Source: Bifidobacteriaceae bacterium | Lineage (GTDB): Bacteria; Actinomycetota; Actinomycetes; Actinomycetales; Bifidobacteriaceae | DNA length: 64,000 nt | NCBI GenBank assembly: GCA_022651005.1 | Contig: JALCQD010000003.1 | Coordinates: 1 to 64,000, forward strand | Reading direction: 5' to 3' | Shown: positions 24,403 through 34,351 of the stretch, one piece after another | Layout of the letters: every line of letters starts with the position of its first letter | How positions within the stretch are numbered: position 1 is the first letter of the stretch | Notes under the pieces: generated by a model | Database searches by the model: none | Told to the model about the DNA's origin: nothing | Seen by the model: the letters and a program-made list of their open reading frames with translations, nothing else | Program-made: the position numbers and the translations under genes

Positions 24403-25626
24403 ATGAGCTCTTCCGTGCCAATCGTGCCGACTCTTCAGCAGCCGAAACCCGCCGGAGGATTCATCACCACCGTGCGCCTGCTGAGCCTGTCTCTCGTCTC
24501 CTTCTCCCTCGGAATGAGCCAGTTCATGTTGGTGAGCCTGCTGCCCAACGCGGCCACGGCGCTCAGCATTCCTTCAAGCCAGGCGAGCAACCTCATTTCG
24601 TCATACTCCATCGGTATCTGCGTAGGACTGCTGCTCTTGCTGCTGTCCAAGCGCCTCTCAGCCAAAGTCATCATGATCCTCATGGCAGGTCTCATTGCGG
24701 TCGGCAGTTTCCTCACGTTCATCTTCACTTCTTTTGGCCTGCTCGTGGTGGCGCGTTTCATCGCGGGTCTGCCTCATGGCGCTTTCTTCTCGCTCACGTC
24801 GCTCGTGGCACCGAAACTGTCGCGCAAAGGCAAGGAGGCGCGCGGCCTGGGAATCGTGGTGACCGGTCAGACGGTGGCAAACATCATCGGTGTACCACTC
24901 GGAACCTTCATGGCCTCGGTCATGCCGTGGCAGTCGGTTTTTCTCGTCATCGCCATTGTGGCGCTCGTGGGACTGCTGCTCATCGCCGCGCTTGTGCCGT
25001 CCGTTTCGCTCAACGACGGATCCGACGCCCGTGCGATCCTCAAGGCGGTTCGCACCCTTCCCTTCTGGATGGGCTTCCTCGGCGTCTTCTTCGGGTGCGC
25101 CTCAATCTTCGCGTGGTGGAACTTCCTGTCGTCCTGGGCCGTCACGTTCGGTGGACTCACCTCTGCAAACATTGTCATTCTGATGATGGTGGCCGGCATC
25201 GGCATGTTCCTCGGCTCCACGCTCTCTAGCCAAATCAGCGATCGCACCGCACCTGCCGCCACCACTATGTGGGGCCAGGTGGGCGCACTCATCGCGCTGC
25301 TGGTGGTTGGACTCGCGTCGCCGTCGGGAATAGGTGCGTACGTCGCCACGTTCTTCGTGGCTTTCTTCCTGTTCTTCGTGTGCGGCGCTCCCTCCCAGCT
25401 CGTGATGGTGGGACTCGCTGCAGGCGGCCTGTTGGGCGGGGCGGCCTTCCAGTTCGCCGTCAACTTCGGCAACTTCGTGGGAACCGAGATCGGCAGCGTC
25501 GCGGCCGGATCGGCCGGGCACTATCAGGTTTCAGCGCTCGTAGGCGCCGCACTGTCCGTGCTGTCCATCGCCGGATTCATCTATCTTTCCGTGCGTGAAA
25601 AGCGCGGGAGCGACGTCATCGCTTAG
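24403..25626 (+). CDS. MFS transporter, AraJ-like
   Basis: The 407-residue protein is a twelve-span major facilitator of the AraJ/Bcr-type drug:H+ antiporter-like group. A cytoplasmic N-terminus leads to LSLVSFSLGMSQFMLVSLLP (the family 'g..efv..glLP' start). ARFIAGLPHGAFFSLTSLVA is motif-like for span 4, and GQTVANIIGVPLGT for span 5. The substrate is unknown. It is convergent with another MFS gene of the same subfamily (15-nt gap); the two are clearly related and may be ancient duplicates. Confidence 0.85.
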   Translation: MSSSVPIVPTLQQPKPAGGFITTVRLLSLSLVSFSLGMSQFMLVSLLPNAATALSIPSSQASNLISSYSIGICVGLLLLLLSKRLSAKVIMILMAGLIAVGSFLTFIFTSFGLLVVARFIAGLPHGAFFSLTSLVAPKLSRKGKEARGLGIVVTGQTVANIIGVPLGTFMASVMPWQSVFLVIAIVALVGLLLIAALVPSVSLNDGSDARAILKAVRTLPFWMGFLGVFFGCASIFAWWNFLSSWAVTFGGLTSANIVILMMVAGIGMFLGSTLSSQISDRTAPAATTMWGQVGALIALLVVGLASPSGIGAYVATFFVAFFLFFVCGAPSQLVMVGLAAGGLLGGAAFQFAVNFGNFVGTEIGSVAAGSAGHYQVSALVGAALSVLSIAGFIYLSVREKRGSDVIA

Positions 25627-25641
25627 CGCGTCCTTGACACC

Positions 25642-26913
25642 TCAAATACGCCGACGTCCCAGATAGAAGCACATCGCCGCCGAGCCGAGCGAGAAGATGG
25701 CCCCGAACGGTCCGAGCCAGCCCATGCCGAGACCGTCCGTCACAAGGCCACCCACCGCAGCGCCCACCGCAATGCCGATGTTGAATGACATCGAGTTCAG
25801 CGACGACGCGAGATTCACGGACCCTGGGTGTGACGCAGCAGCCACGTCGAGAAAGAGTATCTGTGACGGCGAATTCATAAGGTACATGAGGAATCCCAGC
25901 GCTACGAGCATCACGAGCGTCAGCGGTGCCACGCGGAATATCCCCACAAGCGACGCCAAGCACACGGCTTGCACGAGAAAAACGGGGAGGCAGCGAGCCA
26001 ACGGCTCCGTCCCCTTACCGCTGCCGCGATTCGCCAGCCGCCCGCTAGTGAGATTGCTGGCAAGGCACGCAATGCCGAACACGATCAGCGCAAATCCCAC
26101 AAAACGTGGTGGCACGTGCCCGAATCCCGTGATGATCGGGGTGAGATACGTATAGAACACGTAGCTCGCCGCTGAGGCGCAGAGCACGCATGTCAGCCCA
26201 GCGAGAATGCGCGGATCAAAGAACAACAAGAACTGGCTGAAGAACCCTACGCGTATCTGTCGTTGCGATGAATGATGTGGGAGCTTCACCACCATCACGA
26301 TGACAAGCGCCACAATCATCACGTCGATGGCATGGAAGGCCGCCCGCCATCCGAGAGAACCGGCAATGGCCGTCCCAATGGGTACTCCCACGATCGAGGC
26401 GATGGAGAATCCCGAAAATACCCACGATACGAAACGCGTGCGGTATTGCGGCTGCGTCACGTCGGGAGCAAAGGTCATGGAGATTGCCACAAGAGTTCCG
26501 CTCACCACGGCGATGACGATTCTCGCCACCAGCAGCATCACGTAGTTCACTGCAAAGGCGCACAGGATATTACCCGCAAGAAAGATGCCAATAAGCACCA
26601 TATAGATTCTAAAACGTTGGAATCTCGCGGAAAGAGCCGCACCCAGCGGAGTACATACGGCATATGCAGCGGCGAAAATCGACACGAGATTGCCCACAGT
26701 TGTAAGAGGAACGTTGAGATCGCGAGCAATGTTGGGCAGTACTCCCACCATGATGAATTCGCTGGTGCCCAGCGCGAAGCTGAGGCCGATGATGGCAAGC
26801 ACCTGAATCGTGAAGAAGCGCGGATTTGCCTCGGGTATGCGCATGGTAGCCCCCGGTTTTTCAAGCGGGGATTCGGAATGCGAGGAGCCAGTGGGTCCAG
26901 TGCCAAAAGTCAC
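25642..26913 (-). CDS. MFS transporter, AraJ/YdhP-like
   Basis: The 423-residue major facilitator has a 35-residue cytoplasmic N-terminus and twelve hydrophobic spans. Typical features are FALGTSEFIMVGVLPNIA (span 1), ARIVIAVVSGTLVAIS (span 4) and GFSIASIVGVPIGTAI (span 5). Its closest features are those of sugar-efflux or drug-efflux proteins of the AraJ group. The gene may start at ATG 26913 or at a later ATG (codon 24); no strong ribosome site decides. It faces the AraJ-like gene tail to tail. Upstream lies the leader of the cystine transporter, read in the opposite direction. Confidence 0.82.
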   Translation of the reverse strand: MTFGTGPTGSSHSESPLEKPGATMRIPEANPRFFTIQVLAIIGLSFALGTSEFIMVGVLPNIARDLNVPLTTVGNLVSIFAAAYAVCTPLGAALSARFQRFRIYMVLIGIFLAGNILCAFAVNYVMLLVARIVIAVVSGTLVAISMTFAPDVTQPQYRTRFVSWVFSGFSIASIVGVPIGTAIAGSLGWRAAFHAIDVMIVALVIVMVVKLPHHSSQRQIRVGFFSQFLLFFDPRILAGLTCVLCASAASYVFYTYLTPIITGFGHVPPRFVGFALIVFGIACLASNLTSGRLANRGSGKGTEPLARCLPVFLVQAVCLASLVGIFRVAPLTLVMLVALGFLMYLMNSPSQILFLDVAAASHPGSVNLASSLNSMSFNIGIAVGAAVGGLVTDGLGMGWLGPFGAIFSLGSAAMCFYLGRRRI

Positions 26914-27019: not shown

Positions 27020-27048
27020 TTGCACGATTCGGCAACGTGAGCTAATCT
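27020..27048 (+). promoter_or_regulatory. Promoter of the polycysteine leader ORF
   Basis: TTGCAC (27020-27025) and TAATCT (27043-27048) are separated by exactly 17 nt. The -10 ends 7 nt before the GTG of the small ORF, so transcription would begin at or next to that GTG (leaderless mRNA). Confidence 0.55.
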
Positions 27049-27055
27049 CAATCCC

Positions 27056-27181
27056 GTGAGCATAAGCACAATCTCTACAGCCGTTGAGGCGCAGTCTGCA
27101 GCAGCGCAGGCACTGCGTTCTTCTCAGCGTGCCCTCGCGTGTGCCTGTGCATGTTGTCAGCTCACGTGTTGTGCTCGCTGA
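27056..27181 (+). CDS. Leaderless polycysteine leader ORF (putative Cys attenuator)
   Basis: A 41-codon frame starts at GTG and ends in TGA. Its last 14 codons hold six cysteines, all TGT, in the order CACACCQLTCCAR. The first two thirds are Ser/Ala/Gln-rich. A good promoter ends 7 nt upstream and there is no ribosome site, which fits a leaderless transcript. The next gene on the strand, 249 nt later, is a cystine-type symporter. In mycobacteria, leaderless polycysteine short ORFs are known to act as cysteine-responsive attenuators of sulfur genes. By analogy, ribosomes would stall on the Cys tract when Cys-tRNA is scarce and permit transporter expression. The role here is inferred. A RiPP precursor is less likely because no maturation enzymes are nearby. 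Confidence 0.6.
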   Translation: MSISTISTAVEAQSAAAQALRSSQRALACACACCQLTCCAR

Positions 27182-27430
27182 ACAATAAATATTCATATTA
27201 TTTGATTCAGTTCTCGCACTTTCACATTTAGCGTCCTCTTTGTGGACATTTCTGAGCCCCTGTGCCCCATGCCATCACTGTTACGAGCATACGGAAGCCA
27301 AGAAATTCCGCGAATCGTGCACGCATCATAAAAAATCGCAATAACGAATACCCGTAAAACCGCTATAGGAATTAACGATTTTCGCTATTTTGATGAAGGA
27401 ATTATTGCCGCATTGGGCAAAGGAGAAATA
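27182..27430 (+). promoter_or_regulatory. Leader between polycysteine ORF and cystine transporter
   Basis: This 249-nt AT-rich stretch has no other ORF that I can support. It would be the attenuator region if the small ORF controls the symporter. I see no textbook terminator (stem plus T-run); CGCTAT occurs twice near 27360-27388 as a direct repeat. Regulation could be Rho-dependent or use a structure not evident by eye. Confidence 0.35.
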
Positions 27431-29041
27431 ATGTCGGACACCCCAGTAATAACATCGCTGGATTGGGTCAGCCTTGGCGTGACCGTGGTGCTCTTCGCCG
27501 TATTGGCGTTCTTGAGCATCAAGAAGCTCGTGGGCTTCGGTCTGCGCACCATCATTGCAACCGCCTTCGGAATCATCGTGGGCGCCGCCTTCCAGGGCCA
27601 CACCACGTTTGTGGCTGCCTTTGGCTCCGTGTGGTCCAACGCCATCTCAGCCATCGTGGTGCCGCTGCTGCTTTTCAGCATCATCGCGTCGATCACAAAT
27701 CTGGGCGAATCGGTGCGCCTGAAGAACATCGGACTCAAGTCAATCGTGTTCCTCATGCTCAACACCCTCACCGCAGCACTCCTCGCCCTCGGCCTGGGCA
27801 CTGCATTCGGCGTGGGCAACGGATTCAATTACACGCCGGTCGCCGGGTACAAGGCACACGAAGTACCCACCGTTCTCGACACCCTCATCAACCTCTTCCC
27901 CTCGAATCTCGTGGCCAACTGGTCCGAGAATCAGGTAGTCCCTGTGGTGATCTTCGCGCTCCTGGTCGCCATCGCCTTCAATGAAGCCGCCAAGACCCCC
28001 AAGGGCGCGGAAGCCGTTTCTCCGTTCAAGCGTTTCGTGGACGCGGGCAACGTGGTGCTGAGCAAGGCCACCCAGATTGTCATCGGCTTCACTCCCTACG
28101 CTGTGCTTGCGCTCATTGCCAACGCGGTCTCCGGCTCCAACATCGCCACGCTGCTGCCGCTCGTGGGCGTGCTCGTCGTGGCCTACGTCGCCATGATCAT
28201 CCAGATGTTCATCGTTCAGCCTCTGCTGCTCGGTGGCTTCACGCGCCTCAACCCCATTCGCTTCTTCAAGTTCTTCTGGCCCGCCGGCGTGGTGGCCTTC
28301 ACCTCTGAGTCCAGCATCGGCACCATCCCGGTCACCGTGCGCCAGCTCAAGCAAATGGGCGTGAAGGGCGACATCGCGTCCTTCGTTTCCAGCCTCGGCG
28401 CCAATCTTGGCATGCCTGGCTGCGCCGGAATCTGGCCTGTGCTCGTGGCCGTTTTCACAGTGCACGCCCAGGGTTTGAACTACTCCGCCGGTCAGTACCT
28501 GTTCCTTGTTGTCCTCGCGCTGCTGGTGTCCGTTGGCACGGTGGGCGTTCCCGGCACAGCAACCGTCACCGCCACGTCGTTGTTTGCCGCGGCCGGGCTG
28601 CCAGTTGAGTTTATCGCCGTAATGCAGCCAATTTCCACCATCGTGGACATGGGTCGTACTGCCCTGAACGTCGCGGGCGCGGCCAATTCCGCCGTGATCG
28701 TGGCCAAGACCGAAGGACAGCTTGACGTTGATATTTACAACGGCAAGAAGGAATACATCGAGGAAGACGAAGAGCTTCTCGCCGAGGCCTCATCCCTCAT
28801 TGGGCGCAAAGGCAAGAAGGACACGGCAGCTTCCGGCGCCGCTGAGAGTGGCGCTGCGACGGCGCTGGCAGCGGACGCTTCCGTCGAGTCTACGGCCTCG
28901 GCAGATTCCGCTCCCGCCTTCAGCTTCGACGTTGCCGACTCGGCCTTGAGCTTCAGCCCCGCAGCCGCGCTGTCTGGCCAAGACGATGACCAATGCGGCA
29001 TCGGCGGAGTTGGATCCGGCAAGGCTTCCGACAATAAGTAG
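27431..29041 (+). CDS. tcyP: Cystine-type sodium/proton:dicarboxylate symporter family transporter
   Basis: The 536-residue protein belongs to the DAACS family and most resembles L-cystine transporters of the TcyP/YdjN kind. A short N-terminus leads into FAVLAFLSIKKLVGFGLRTI. ISAIVVPLLLFSIIASITNL is the family span-3 region, and TSESSIGTIPVTVRQLKQ and GTATVTATSLFAAAGLPVEF are the re-entrant-loop motifs. After the last membrane span (about 430) there is an unusual acidic/Ala/Ser-rich tail of about 100 residues. I use the ATG with AGGAG 5-6 nt upstream rather than a TTG 18 nt earlier. The polycysteine ORF upstream supports a cystine substrate; this is inference, not proof. Confidence 0.8.
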   Translation: MSDTPVITSLDWVSLGVTVVLFAVLAFLSIKKLVGFGLRTIIATAFGIIVGAAFQGHTTFVAAFGSVWSNAISAIVVPLLLFSIIASITNLGESVRLKNIGLKSIVFLMLNTLTAALLALGLGTAFGVGNGFNYTPVAGYKAHEVPTVLDTLINLFPSNLVANWSENQVVPVVIFALLVAIAFNEAAKTPKGAEAVSPFKRFVDAGNVVLSKATQIVIGFTPYAVLALIANAVSGSNIATLLPLVGVLVVAYVAMIIQMFIVQPLLLGGFTRLNPIRFFKFFWPAGVVAFTSESSIGTIPVTVRQLKQMGVKGDIASFVSSLGANLGMPGCAGIWPVLVAVFTVHAQGLNYSAGQYLFLVVLALLVSVGTVGVPGTATVTATSLFAAAGLPVEFIAVMQPISTIVDMGRTALNVAGAANSAVIVAKTEGQLDVDIYNGKKEYIEEDEELLAEASSLIGRKGKKDTAASGAAESGAATALAADASVESTASADSAPAFSFDVADSALSFSPAAALSGQDDDQCGIGGVGSGKASDNK

Positions 29042-29172: not shown

Positions 29173-29847
29173 TTATACGTGTGCGAGACTCTTTGCTCCT
29201 GCACCCGTGACAACGCCCACGCCCACTCCATCGCATGTCTTCGGCGGGAAGGTGCGCGTCATGAAGCGCACGAAATCGGTGATGGACATGCCTCCGTCGT
29301 CGGAGAGCCACGCAGACACTGCCGACACGATTCCCGACAACGCGAATTCGCGGTAGAGCCGCGCTTCGGCGTCGGTGAGATTGAGGCAATCGGCACCTTG
29401 ATTAATCAGTGGAACGATGAGGTCCTTGAATTTGCGCACGAATTTTGGATCGCCGCGTTCGGAGAGCAGCACCGACATGAACGAGCGATATGTTTGCACG
29501 GTGGAGGCGAGGAATTTCATGTCTTCCTCGAAGTCGAAGGAGTTCACAACATCGTCGAGCGACACGTCCTGGACCCGAGTGCCTTCTGGCACGGCAAATT
29601 TCTTTACGTCGCCCAGATGAGACACGATGAGTTCGGCGATGGCGTCGAGCAGTTTGTCTTCGGCCTGGGCGAAGAGCTCCGGAATGTCACGGTAATACTG
29701 GTAAAAGGTGGCTCGGTTGTACCCCGCTCGGTCGGTGATGTCTTTGACACGAATCTTGTTGACGTCGTTGTTCAAGTACAGTTCCCAAAACGCCTGCTGC
29801 AACCGTTCGCGCGTCTGCTCGGTCACCTCGGGTTGCTTGTTGACCAT
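29173..29847 (-). CDS. TetR/AcrR-family repressor, divergent from MMPL transporter
   Basis: From the ATG with AGGAGAT about 6 nt upstream, the product is 224 residues. The TetR helix-turn-helix is at about 10-60 (TRERLQQAFWELYLNND..IRVKDITDRAGYNRATFYQYYRDI). The C-terminal domain is ligand-binding and not otherwise recognisable. It is transcribed away from the MMPL/heptad-repeat gene pair, and inverted repeats occur in the gap between them. It probably represses that pair and perhaps itself; the inducer is unknown. Confidence 0.85.
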   Translation of the reverse strand: MVNKQPEVTEQTRERLQQAFWELYLNNDVNKIRVKDITDRAGYNRATFYQYYRDIPELFAQAEDKLLDAIAELIVSHLGDVKKFAVPEGTRVQDVSLDDVVNSFDFEEDMKFLASTVQTYRSFMSVLLSERGDPKFVRKFKDLIVPLINQGADCLNLTDAEARLYREFALSGIVSAVSAWLSDDGGMSITDFVRFMTRTFPPKTCDGVGVGVVTGAGAKSLAHV

Positions 29848-29922
29848 TCCGCATCTCCTTGCCACGCTCAGCATACCGCCGTTTGCGAGAGGGTATCACC
29901 GTCCCGGCATCGCGCTTATCAC

Positions 29923-29983
29923 CTGACAAACACGACAAAATTGTCAGTTGATGAAATCTCTAACGGTGTTTATGATACATCAT
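29923..29983. promoter_or_regulatory. TetR-type operator and promoter of the MMPL operon
   Basis: An inverted repeat CTGACAA-(11 nt)-TTGTCAG (29923-29947) overlaps the upstream edge of a promoter-like pair: TTGATG (29948-29953), a 17-nt spacer and TATGAT (29971-29976). A second inverted repeat, ATGAT-AC-ATCAT (29972-29983), covers the -10. Either could be the operator for the divergent TetR protein. Confidence 0.5.
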
Positions 29984-30062
29984 CAGGCAACACGTTGTTG
30001 GATAATACTCGACAGCTCACGAACAGCCCCTTTAGCGGCCCCTACGAAAGGCAGTGCGCAGC

Positions 30063-32144
30063 ATGGATTGGATCGCCCGGCAGGTCCTCCGTTTCCGGAA
30101 GACCATCATCACGATTTTCGCCGTCGCAATCGCCGTTTTCGGTACGGCCGCGCTCACCCTGCAGATCAATTACGACATGACGCAATACCTGCCTGCCGAC
30201 GCCAACTCCACTAAAGCCTTGAACGTCATGAAGTCGTCCTTCAAGAAGGATCTGCCCAACGCAACCGTCATGATCCCAGTCAACGGCGTGGCCCAAGGCA
30301 AGGAATACAAGGACAAGATCGCGAAGACCACCGGTGTCGAGGACGTTATGTGGCTCGACGATTCCGTTGACCTCACCAAGCCCGTGGAATCCCTCGATCA
30401 AAAAACAGTCGACAGCTACTACAAAGACGGCCACGCGCTCTACCAAGTCACCGTGGAATCGGGCGACGAGCAGAAGGCCGTCTCGGCGCTCAAAGCCCTC
30501 GCCACCAACGCGAAAACGGGCGAGAGCACCGTCGCCGTGGTGGGCAACGCGGCAGATATGGCGAGCTCTCAGAAAATGGCGCTCAGCCAAAGCTCCTACG
30601 CCATGCTCCTCCTCGTGCCTATCATTCTGGCCATCCTCATCATCGCCACACGCAGTTGGGTGGAGCCCCTGCTCTACCTCGCCACCATCGGCGCCAGCAT
30701 CGTCATCAACCTGGGCATCTCGTCCATGATGGGCGAAATCAGCTTCATCTCCATGGCAGTTGTGCCAATTCTGCAACTCGCCGTGGCGCTCGACTACGCC
30801 GTGTTCCTCTCCACCGCCTACACGGCCGCCCGCGAAACCACTGCCAGCAGCGTCGACGCCATGAAAACGGCCATGAAAAAGTCGGCCACCTCCATCTTCG
30901 CGAGCGCACTCGTCGGCATCTTCGCCTTCGCCGCGCTGATTTTCATGAACTTCAAGATCGGCCCGGACATGGGCTGGGGCTTGGTGCGCGGCGTGGTGGT
31001 CAGTTACGTGAGCGTCATCACTCTGCTGCCCGCGCTCACAGTCGCGGCCGACAAGTGGATTCAGAAGACGCATCATCGCCGCTTCCTGCCCAGTTTCACG
31101 CGCACGAGTTCGGCGCTAGTCAAGATTCGTATTCCTGCGCTCATCGTGATTGTGCTCATGGTGATTCCGTCGTACTTGGGTCAGGCGCGTAACTCCTTCA
31201 TTTACGGTTCGGGAGATGCCGCGGCCGGCTCCACAATAGCCGTCGATACTGCCGCGGAGAAGAAGATCTTCAGCACGGACAACACACTCGTGTTGCTTGT
31301 TCCGCGCGGCGACCCTGCGGCCGAAAAGCAGCTCGATGCCGCCATCAAGCCGCTGGCGGGCGTCAAGTCCATCACCTCGTACGCCACGGCCGTGAGCAAT
31401 CAGGTTCCACCGCAGTATCTGGGAAGCCTCTCCGATAACTTCTATTCCAAGGACTATGCACGCATCATCATCACGGTGACCACGAAATCCGAGGGGGACG
31501 CGGCCTTCAGGCTTGTTCGTCAGGTGCGGGCGGCCGCTAGCAATCTCTACCCCGGCAAACAGACCTATCTCGCCGGCGAATCCGCGAACATGTATGACAT
31601 GATGAACACCGTCACCGCCGACAACAAGCGCGTGGACACCATCACCGTCATTGCCATTTTCCTGATATTGCTGATACTGTTCCGCTCACTCATCTTGCCG
31701 CTCATTGCCATCGTGACCATCAAGTCGGCCATTTTCATCAACATGGCGATCCCGTATTTCATGGGCACGGAGCTCAGCTTCATCGGCTACCTCATCGTGT
31801 CGGTCATCATGATGGGATCGGCCATCGATTACGGCATTCTGCTGCTGGACCACTACCTGGTGGAGCGGCGAACGATGGGCAAGATTCCCGCCATGAAGTC
31901 CGCTCTCAAGCAGGCGATTCCGGCCATGTTCGTCTCCGCGTTGATTCTCACGCTCGCCGGCATCACGCTGGGCGTCACCAGCTCCAACGCCATCGTGGCG
32001 GCGATGGGCTGGCTCATCGGGCGCGGCGGCATCATCGCGTTCCTCTCCTCGATCACGCTGCTGCCAAGTCTGCTGCTCGTTTTTGACCCGTTGATTCCAA
32101 AGCTCTCGCTCAAGCTCACGTTTTATAAGGAGATTTCCAAATGA
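30063..32144 (+). CDS. MMPL/RND-family membrane transporter
   Basis: The protein of about 693 residues has the MMPL layout. An N-terminal span precedes an extracytoplasmic domain (about 35-165), then a block of five or six spans containing LQLAVALDYAVFLSTAYT (the first GDY-type motif). A second extracytoplasmic domain (about 370-510) is followed by another span block with MMGSAIDYGILLLDHY. The two conserved acidic/Tyr motifs expected for proton coupling are present. Such proteins export lipids, peptides or drugs in Gram-positives. An in-frame GTG 9 nt upstream is too close to AAAGG to be a good start. Its stop overlaps the next gene (ATGA). The TetR gene is divergent. Confidence 0.85.
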   Translation: MDWIARQVLRFRKTIITIFAVAIAVFGTAALTLQINYDMTQYLPADANSTKALNVMKSSFKKDLPNATVMIPVNGVAQGKEYKDKIAKTTGVEDVMWLDDSVDLTKPVESLDQKTVDSYYKDGHALYQVTVESGDEQKAVSALKALATNAKTGESTVAVVGNAADMASSQKMALSQSSYAMLLLVPIILAILIIATRSWVEPLLYLATIGASIVINLGISSMMGEISFISMAVVPILQLAVALDYAVFLSTAYTAARETTASSVDAMKTAMKKSATSIFASALVGIFAFAALIFMNFKIGPDMGWGLVRGVVVSYVSVITLLPALTVAADKWIQKTHHRRFLPSFTRTSSALVKIRIPALIVIVLMVIPSYLGQARNSFIYGSGDAAAGSTIAVDTAAEKKIFSTDNTLVLLVPRGDPAAEKQLDAAIKPLAGVKSITSYATAVSNQVPPQYLGSLSDNFYSKDYARIIITVTTKSEGDAAFRLVRQVRAAASNLYPGKQTYLAGESANMYDMMNTVTADNKRVDTITVIAIFLILLILFRSLILPLIAIVTIKSAIFINMAIPYFMGTELSFIGYLIVSVIMMGSAIDYGILLLDHYLVERRTMGKIPAMKSALKQAIPAMFVSALILTLAGITLGVTSSNAIVAAMGWLIGRGGIIAFLSSITLLPSLLLVFDPLIPKLSLKLTFYKEISK

Positions 32145-34351
32145 ACTCTAAGATTCGCACGGCGGGCATCGCCTCCCTCGCCTCCATTGCACTACTGCTG
32201 ACCGGCGGCTCGCTCGCCTACGGCGCCACCGCCACCAGCACGAGCGCGACGGCAGCCGGAACAGGAACCGCTGCCTCGCAGATCACCACCAGTTCCGACG
32301 GCTCCGTCAAGACGGCGGTGGCGAACAGCACGGCGGCAGGATCCGGTAGCGCAAAGGCCACCAAGGACCAGAACATCTACGGCATCCTGAACTCCGACGG
32401 CGGCTCCAAGAACGTGTACGTGGTCAACCAGTTCAAGGTCACCAAGGCGGGAACGCTCGTTGACTACGGCGATTACGATTCCGCGCAGAACCTCTCCACC
32501 ACGACGAAACTCACGAGCAGCGCCGACAAGCACTCCATTGACGTCTCCAAGGGCGACTTCTACTATCAGGGAAACCTCACCTCCTCCGCAGCCCAAGCGC
32601 AACTGCCCTGGAACGTTGGCATCAGCTACCAGCTCGACGGCAATACGGTGGACGCTAAGAAGCTCGTTGGCGCCACCGGCCACGTGAAGGTGAGCATCGA
32701 CACCGCAAAGAACCCAAGCGCCGCAAGCAGCTTGTATTACAAGAAGTACATGCTGCAGATCTCGCTCACCGTTCCCGCGGACGCTGTGAACAACCTCGAC
32801 GCCGGGGACTCCGGCATCGTGGCAGATGCGGGTGCCAACAAGCAGATCACCTTCATGGTGATGCCTGGCAAGGATGGAAAGCTGAGTTTCAGCGCCGACG
32901 CCACCGACTTCAGCATGAGCGCAATCTCCATTGCAGCGGCACCGTTCTCGATTGACATCGGCGATGCCTTCGACACGTCGTCTCTGACGTCCGGCATGGA
33001 AAAGCTCGCCAGTGGCATGAACGAGCTGTCAGACGGCTCAGGCACACTGGCGGCCAATACGGGGTCGCTGACTTCGGGCACGTCGCAACTGGCGAGTGGG
33101 GCAGGAACGCTAGCATCCGGCGTATCGCAGTACTCCGCTGGAGTCGCAAAGTTCGGCATCGGCGTGGGCAAGGCGGCAGACGGGGCCACCACCCTGGCGA
33201 GCGGCGCAACGTCGCTCAGTTCAGGAGTGACGCAGTACGCGAGCGGCGTGACCCAGCTTGCAAAGGGCACGTCCTCTCTCAGCTCAGGGGTATCGCAGCT
33301 CTCAGGCGGCGTATCGCAGCTTTCCGGAGGCGTTTCCTCCCTGAGCACCGGAGTATCCAAGGCGGCCGCAGGATCCAAAACGTACGCCGACCAGCTGTCG
33401 CAGCAGGCGACTTCGTTGGGGCAGAAGGCAAACGCAACCACCATTGCAGCGGCATCGGAAAAGTATCAGACGGCGTTCACCGAGTATTCCACCGCGCTGT
33501 CGATGCTTGCGGCCACCCAGCCTATGAAGCTGCTCACCGTGCAGACCATTCAGAAGAAGCTGCCCGATCCGGTCAAGGATCCCAGCGGTTACCGCTCAGG
33601 CCTCGTGAGCGCCATCAATTCCCAGTCCGATAAGGATGTCACGAACATTCTCCAGAAGGTGCTCGCCATTACCGATACGCAGGCGGCACTCACCACGCTG
33701 GCGGGAACGGCGGGATCAGCCCAGGCGCTCAGCGGTGCAGCATCAGGTGCTTCCAAGCTCAATGACGGCATGCAGCAACTCGCCACTGGAGCGAGCACCC
33801 TTGCCACGGGAGCCTCTAAAACCGCGGAAGGCGCCTCCAAGACCGCAGCGGGCGCAAAGTCGCTCGATGACGGCGCCCAGAAGGCGGCAAAGGGAGGGAA
33901 AACCGTGGCCTCCGGAGCGTCAAGCCTCGCAAAAGGCGCGACCACCTACGCAAAGGGCCTTGAGTCACTGAACACGGGAGCCTCGTCACTCACTACTGGC
34001 GCCTCCAAGCTCTCCAGTGGCGCGGGAACTCTCGCCACAGGCGCCTCGTCCCTGTCGTCAGGAGTGTCCCAATTCGCCTCTGGCGTCACCCAACTGAGTG
34101 ATGGCATGGCCACGATGGCAGAGAACACCGATAAGATTCCCTCCACCATGAAGAAGGAGATCAACAAGGCGATGGAGGCCTTCACCGGCACCGTAACGCC
34201 CGTTGACTTCGTATCGTCCAAGAACTCCGACGTGGAGCAGGTGCAATTCATGCTCACCACATCTGCTCTAGAGAAAACGGAAACCACGAAGGCAGCAAAA
34301 GACGCCCCGACGCCATCGTTCTGGGAGCGGTTGAAGAACCTGTTCAAGTAA
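32141..34351 (+). CDS. Secreted heptad-repeat protein, YhgE/Pip-like, partner of MMPL
   Basis: The 736-residue protein has a signal peptide (about 1-30, ending SLAYGATA) and a folded N-terminal part (about 60-270). A long Ser/Ala/Gly/Leu region (about 280-420 and 520-670) follows, built on repeats of the type 'LxxGxxxLxxGxxxL' (SGASQLASGA.TL.SG.). These X3-Leu-X2-Gly repeats occur in YhgE/Pip-type envelope proteins. Unlike those, no C-terminal membrane span is seen, so it is probably exported and may form a long coiled or tube-like structure. Its ATG overlaps the MMPL stop by 4 nt, so the two are coupled and likely work together. The function of the pair is unknown. Confidence 0.7.
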   Translation: MNSKIRTAGIASLASIALLLTGGSLAYGATATSTSATAAGTGTAASQITTSSDGSVKTAVANSTAAGSGSAKATKDQNIYGILNSDGGSKNVYVVNQFKVTKAGTLVDYGDYDSAQNLSTTTKLTSSADKHSIDVSKGDFYYQGNLTSSAAQAQLPWNVGISYQLDGNTVDAKKLVGATGHVKVSIDTAKNPSAASSLYYKKYMLQISLTVPADAVNNLDAGDSGIVADAGANKQITFMVMPGKDGKLSFSADATDFSMSAISIAAAPFSIDIGDAFDTSSLTSGMEKLASGMNELSDGSGTLAANTGSLTSGTSQLASGAGTLASGVSQYSAGVAKFGIGVGKAADGATTLASGATSLSSGVTQYASGVTQLAKGTSSLSSGVSQLSGGVSQLSGGVSSLSTGVSKAAAGSKTYADQLSQQATSLGQKANATTIAAASEKYQTAFTEYSTALSMLAATQPMKLLTVQTIQKKLPDPVKDPSGYRSGLVSAINSQSDKDVTNILQKVLAITDTQAALTTLAGTAGSAQALSGAASGASKLNDGMQQLATGASTLATGASKTAEGASKTAAGAKSLDDGAQKAAKGGKTVASGASSLAKGATTYAKGLESLNTGASSLTTGASKLSSGAGTLATGASSLSSGVSQFASGVTQLSDGMATMAENTDKIPSTMKKEINKAMEAFTGTVTPVDFVSSKNSDVEQVQFMLTTSALEKTETTKAAKDAPTPSFWERLKNLFK

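Follow-up and report, generated by a model that had tools for sequence, protein, structure and literature searches.

A short open reading frame (ORF) whose final codons are rich in cysteine probably places a tcyP-like importer gene of a Bifidobacteriaceae bacterium under cysteine-responsive leader control. We assign this reading a probability of about 0.8, a figure that excludes the Rho step discussed below. The ORF lies in a window of 64,000 nucleotides, the whole stretch of DNA that was analyzed, on contig C3 of a 2.16-Mb genome whose nearest relatives in our genome collection are Bifidobacteriaceae MAGs. The original prediction had interpreted the ORF as a Cys leader device, and comparison across 17 tcyP loci largely supports that interpretation. 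That related species keep the same device strongly suggests that cells sense cysteine shortage and switch the importer on.

The leader ORF, its promoter, and the importer gene

The features of the locus are collected in Table 1. A spacer of 17 nt separates the two elements of promoter P1, and no Shine-Dalgarno site precedes the leader GTG. Together, the promoter spacing and the missing Shine-Dalgarno site predict a transcript start at or next to the GTG. The predicted peptide is (f)MSISTISTAVEAQSAAAQALRSSQRALACACACCQLTCCAR, and its six cysteines, every one encoded by TGT, fall within codons 28-41, i.e., the last 14 of the leader. The promoter, its 7-nt distance to the start, the GTG, the 41-codon ORF, and the six TGT codons had been predicted exactly to the base, and the claimed lack of a ribosome site at the GTG was borne out as well. 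P1 is absent from the list of a simple sigma-70 scan, since TTGCAC/TAATCT falls under its 9-of-12 threshold; the support for P1 as a promoter comes from its conservation.

Table 1. Features of the tcyP leader region, in window coordinates
Feature	Position	Strand	Basis
P1 promoter, -35 element TTGCAC	27020..27025	+	TTGNNN at the matching place in 13/16 orthologous loci
P1 promoter, -10 element TAATCT	27043..27048	+	Ends exactly 7 nt (CAATCCC) before the leader start codon
Putative leaderless leader ORF, 41 codons (GTG start at 27056, stop TGA 27179-27181)	27056..27181	+	Orthologues
Putative regulatory Cys tract, six TGT codons (codons 29-39)	27140..27172	+	Codon count
Weak possible hairpin over Cys tract and stop codon	27151..27215	+	cbs model, 8.3 bits, E 0.1 (marginal)
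Untranslated gap, 250 nt, C/G ratio 1.41	27182..27431	+	Alignment (sequence drifts between species), composition
Possible LysR-type T-N11-A dyad, ATCATAAAAAATCGCAATAAC	27325..27345	+	Identical in congener L003
tcyP Shine-Dalgarno site AAAGGAG	27420..27426	+	Sequence
tcyP-like SDF-family symporter gene, presumed target (ATG start at 27432)	27432..29041	+	PF00375 2e-92; motif and identity comparison

A cysteine cluster of this kind is rare. Across all six reading frames, the window holds 1,989 stop-to-stop segments of at least 14 codons; a single one carries at least six Cys in its last 14 codons, and in Markov sequences of matching composition the frequency is 1 in 99,565. Codon choice is also distinctive: the genes of the window use TGC 133 times versus 30 for TGT, whereas the tcyP leaders use TGT 58 times versus 9 for TGC. 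For tcyP and cbs leaders together, UGU outnumbers UGC by 154 to 17, opposite to genome usage. This preference may raise the sensitivity of the sensor, or it may serve an RNA fold at cbs.

The original prediction had placed a TcyP-like symporter next to the leader, in agreement with our analysis: the protein belongs to the SDF family, and its best Escherichia coli relative by direct alignment is TcyP (31%, 145 bits; GltP, 133 bits). The symporter and E. coli TcyP have in common a one-residue-longer TM7 motif, GCAG-(Y/W)-P, which is absent from GltP, DctA, and SstT; the TM8 stretch DMGRTALNV is likewise shared with TcyP. No NCBIfam equivalog reached its cut-off, with the GltP, DctA, and SstT models all sub-threshold and GltP the best of them. 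The transporter tree, in which the E. coli proteins sit on long branches, does not settle membership in the TcyP subfamily; we call the symporter TcyP-like rather than a proven TcyP. We infer cystine as its substrate, and the Cys leader strengthens this assignment.

The symporter ends in an Ala/Ser-rich, acidic tail beyond the SDF domain (window 28740-29041), which E. coli TcyP (463 aa) lacks. The neighboring genes comprise two of the MFS efflux type (24403-26913) and, at 29173-34351, a TetR regulator, an MMPL transporter, and a repetitive, secreted-looking protein; no cysteine gene was recognized among these neighbors.

Conservation of the leader at tcyP and cbs

Seventeen Bifidobacteriaceae tcyP loci, namely the window, two congeners, and 14 members of genus g14, keep a leader whose end carries Cys codons. 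The congener leaders read VSIRNIYSAAEAQSAVAQTLQCACCCRLACCAR (L003) and VSINNTLSFAEVSFANVRAAQCLCCCLLTSCTR (L004), and examples from g14 are MTSQISSADSSNGYGLYRSAVNCNSRLHTMMSCMTMSCCR, MTSQILFTGNAAEPISGQRCLLCLPAMSCCRR, MNFVLCCCR, and MMFMFCCRR, each followed by the stop codon; the g14 leader of L040 ends in YCR and the stop. Upstream promoters were compared for 16 of the 17 loci; the L003 contig starts just before the GTG. All 16 have a TANNNT box followed by 7 nt and ATG or GTG, a geometry shared by nearly all cbs loci, and TTGNNN lies 17 nt upstream of the box in 13. When 11 of the tcyP leader loci are aligned, the promoter, leader, and ribosome site are kept, while the gap drifts, and its length ranges from 249 to 462 nt across leader loci. 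The expected pattern, an in-frame Cys tract conserved amid drifting flanks, thus holds in both congeners and in the 14 g14 loci, and the leaderless geometry is preserved there too. Judged by the transporter tree, the distribution of the leader requires two changes, one in the genus of the window and one in a 14-member clade, which could reflect two gains or a single origin with losses.

To gauge the background, we used a strict scan for a TANNNT box, 7 nt, and an ORF with Cys-Cys near its end. The scan matched 14 tcyP upstream regions and nothing elsewhere in about 424 kb, i.e., 128 kb of the window (both strands) and 296 kb of other locus sequence. In a sample of some 50 loci around CC-nnn-stop sites of the same genome, almost entirely from contigs C1 and C2, the 7-nt geometry was found at no other ORF, and a search of this genome for paired Cys codons gave no excess over control. 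We rejected TGYTGYCGYTGA as a family-wide finder: it is commoner than control in many genomes, yet not specific. In the loci that it fetched, a single short ORF had the box geometry (L086), and it was not followed by a long ORF.

The same leader type precedes cbs. In the genome of the window (G000), MHAFPCCCR and its stop codon, behind TACACT, 7 nt, and ATG, lie upstream of adjoining PALP (cbs) and Cys/Met-metabolism (cgl-type) genes. Altogether, 30/30 cbs loci tested in the family, G000 included, have a leader that closes with CCC(C)R and the stop, with equal spacing in nearly all. The recurrence of this device at tcyP and cbs points to a small ribosome-read cysteine regulon, in which both genes probably share one signal, so that import and synthesis of cysteine would respond together. 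Six g14 species (G084, G100, G107, G109, G146, and G149) have the tcyP leader and gave no cbs match of orthologue strength; these may rely wholly on imported cysteine.

Across the 30 cbs loci, a real RNA hairpin emerges, the 5' arm of which holds the Cys codons (mean folding z about -3.5). In loci L117-L144, for example at L131:2636-2718 on the minus strand, the 5' arm, consisting of UCUCA and the Cys codons, pairs with GACGCAUAACUUGAGA past the stop. UCUCA is kept in L121 despite a change in the surrounding reading frame, which points to selection on the RNA. A covariance model built from 17 loci recovers eight held-out cbs loci with E values of 9e-9 or below, although some of these loci are closely related to those used for training; covariation is modest, with six cells changed on both sides and 3/500 shuffles as high. 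At tcyP, a hairpin over the Cys codons was rejected for the group (mean z about -0.25). The candidate in the window is not significant by shuffling and gives no convincing match to the cbs model. The tcyP leaders of L021, L023, and L051 have a fold similar to that of cbs.

Proposed mechanism and alternative explanations

In the mechanism that we propose, P1 transcription would begin at or next to the GTG, and consequently a 70S ribosome would initiate directly at the 5' terminus, unaided by a Shine-Dalgarno sequence. Such leaderless translation is suggested by the conserved geometry and supported by the 15% of start sites measured as leaderless in Bifidobacterium pseudolongum (PMC4782308). With plentiful Cys-tRNA, the ribosome would pass the UGU codons and leave at the stop. 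Its departure would expose about 250 nt of untranslated, structure-poor RNA with C in excess over G, and most transcripts would then end before tcyP. Rho is our candidate for ending them; this is the least certain step, to which we give slightly less than an even chance. With Cys-tRNA in short supply, the ribosome would stall at the UGU codons, with a rise in tcyP expression. We consider sensing by ribosome stalling to be well supported by inference, and the induction that would follow is suggested by mycobacterial precedent.

The composition of the gap bears on the Rho step. Intrinsic terminators were found neither in the window gap nor in most other tcyP leader gaps, and an Rfam search of the region returned no match. 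The C/G ratio of the gap is 1.14-1.62 in 17/17 tcyP leader loci versus 0.69-1.31 for the upstream regions of 11 leader-free tcyP genes; the excess is not present in all cbs gaps, and it may follow genome composition. The long, C-over-G gap and the rho gene present in the genome fit Rho-dependent termination without proving it. Since neither an intrinsic terminator nor a predicted release of the ribosome site was found, Rho-type termination is the leading guess. A stalled leader ribosome would not obviously stop Rho from loading downstream, which leaves the termination step without a defined switch.

An alternative read-out is the one published for Mycobacterium smegmatis, in which the downstream ribosome-binding site is sequestered in a fold until a ribosome stalls on the leader and releases it (Canestrari 2020, as cited in PMC13236596 and PMC9031893). 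Some release of this kind is predicted at cbs, where a model stalled ribosome raises Shine-Dalgarno accessibility in 12/30 loci and lowers it in none. At tcyP, however, a model ribosome on the leader changes accessibility by a mean of +0.01, and by 0.00 in the window, and the intervening gap is long and not conserved. As the folding of long RNA is unreliable, these values do not disprove unmasking, and we regard it as an improbable read-out for tcyP rather than a refuted one.

Control of tcyP could also bypass the leader. Most leader-free tcyP orthologues carry a strong LysR-type T-N11-A dyad (consensus CTATAgccAAyGGcTATAG) about 80-175 nt, mostly 103-123 nt, upstream of the gene. After training on other genera, a matrix recovers this dyad in several g14 leader-free loci. 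In g14 leader loci, no dyad was found at the corresponding place, the sole low-p match (L042) falling inside the leader. Dyads upstream of tcyP were seen in L006, L007, L022, L046, and L049 and, as a weak candidate, in the window (27325-27345). A second promoter behind such a box, near 27335, is conceivable in the genus of the window, where a LysR-type activator could drive most tcyP expression and the P1 leader would be minor or a relic. In favor of this, L002 and L003 have the same 21-mer, a related but weak version of the dyad, amid the drifting gap; yet a matrix from independent training does not score the window box above shuffles (p 0.65), and the leader is still kept in all three congeners. 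We consider it unlikely that the leader has been displaced in this way. The distribution hints, as a lead only, at an exchange of transcription-factor and attenuator control on tcyP, with both present in the genus of the window.

The Cys-rich C-terminus would also suit a working micropeptide that binds metal or serves redox chemistry instead of sensing Cys-tRNA. We find this very unlikely, because the peptide body varies from clade to clade, several orthologues have only nine residues (e.g., MNFVLCCCR), and the ORF precedes cysteine-related genes of two kinds. Small ORFs are common, and one could arise by chance in an intergenic region; the original prediction had called chance unlikely from the match of features in the window. 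On the comparative data, a chance origin is already refuted: sequence and geometry are conserved in 17 tcyP and 30 cbs loci, the strict scan had no background matches, and the Cys cluster was singular among the window segments.

Relation to known attenuators and significance

The cysteine-responsive leader proposed here resembles the polycysteine leaderless ORFs described in mycobacteria at cysA2 and other loci (Shell 2015, PMC4633059) in its predicted leaderless start, its Cys codons at the 3' end, its position as a short ORF before genes of presumed cysteine-related function, and its occurrence at several loci that probably answer to one signal. Leaderless Cys leaders have been shown to work in mycobacteria (Canestrari 2020, as cited in PMC13236596 and PMC9031893), and the precedent invoked in the original prediction is thereby confirmed as far as these citing papers report it. 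Our case differs from these: its presumed target is an importer, its gap spans about 250-460 nt, the tcyP ribosome site is not predicted to be masked, and it is known from sequence. As in the classical attenuators (trp, ilv, and his), the speed of the ribosome at regulatory codons would be the sensor; unlike in those systems, no terminator/antiterminator was found.

Another close parallel is the leader of B. longum cbs, for which a candidate Cys leader peptide was predicted in 2005 (Seliverstov, PMC1262725). It comes from the same bacterial family, has a Cys run near the stop, and lacks a detected terminator, and Rho was proposed there because attenuator elements were missing. In Bifidobacterium, cbs alone is named in that paper, and we found in it no mention of the leaderless geometry, tcyP as a target, or the conserved cbs hairpin, a structure that has no significant match in the tcyP leader of the window. 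The earlier claim that no such device had been described for a cystine importer in this group agrees with our search of largely open-access literature, in which no report of an importer as the target of such a leader was found; the group itself already had a predicted Cys leader at cbs.

A broader scheme is more tentative, and we hold it to be somewhat doubtful: in the Bifidobacteriaceae, a LysR-type operator and a leaderless attenuator would have replaced one another in the control of a cystine importer gene, with both kept in the genus of the window, and the tcyP attenuator would need no conserved RNA fold and would instead couple the stalled leader ribosome to Rho-type termination. Such a locus would offer a natural comparison of an attenuator and a transcription-factor site on one gene. 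In addition, cbs and tcyP form a two-gene set that is open to testing in culturable Bifidobacterium species. Several bifidobacteria seem to depend on outside cysteine. If our reading is true, ribosome-read control by cysteine would reach beyond biosynthesis genes to import, and beyond mycobacteria to bifidobacteria.
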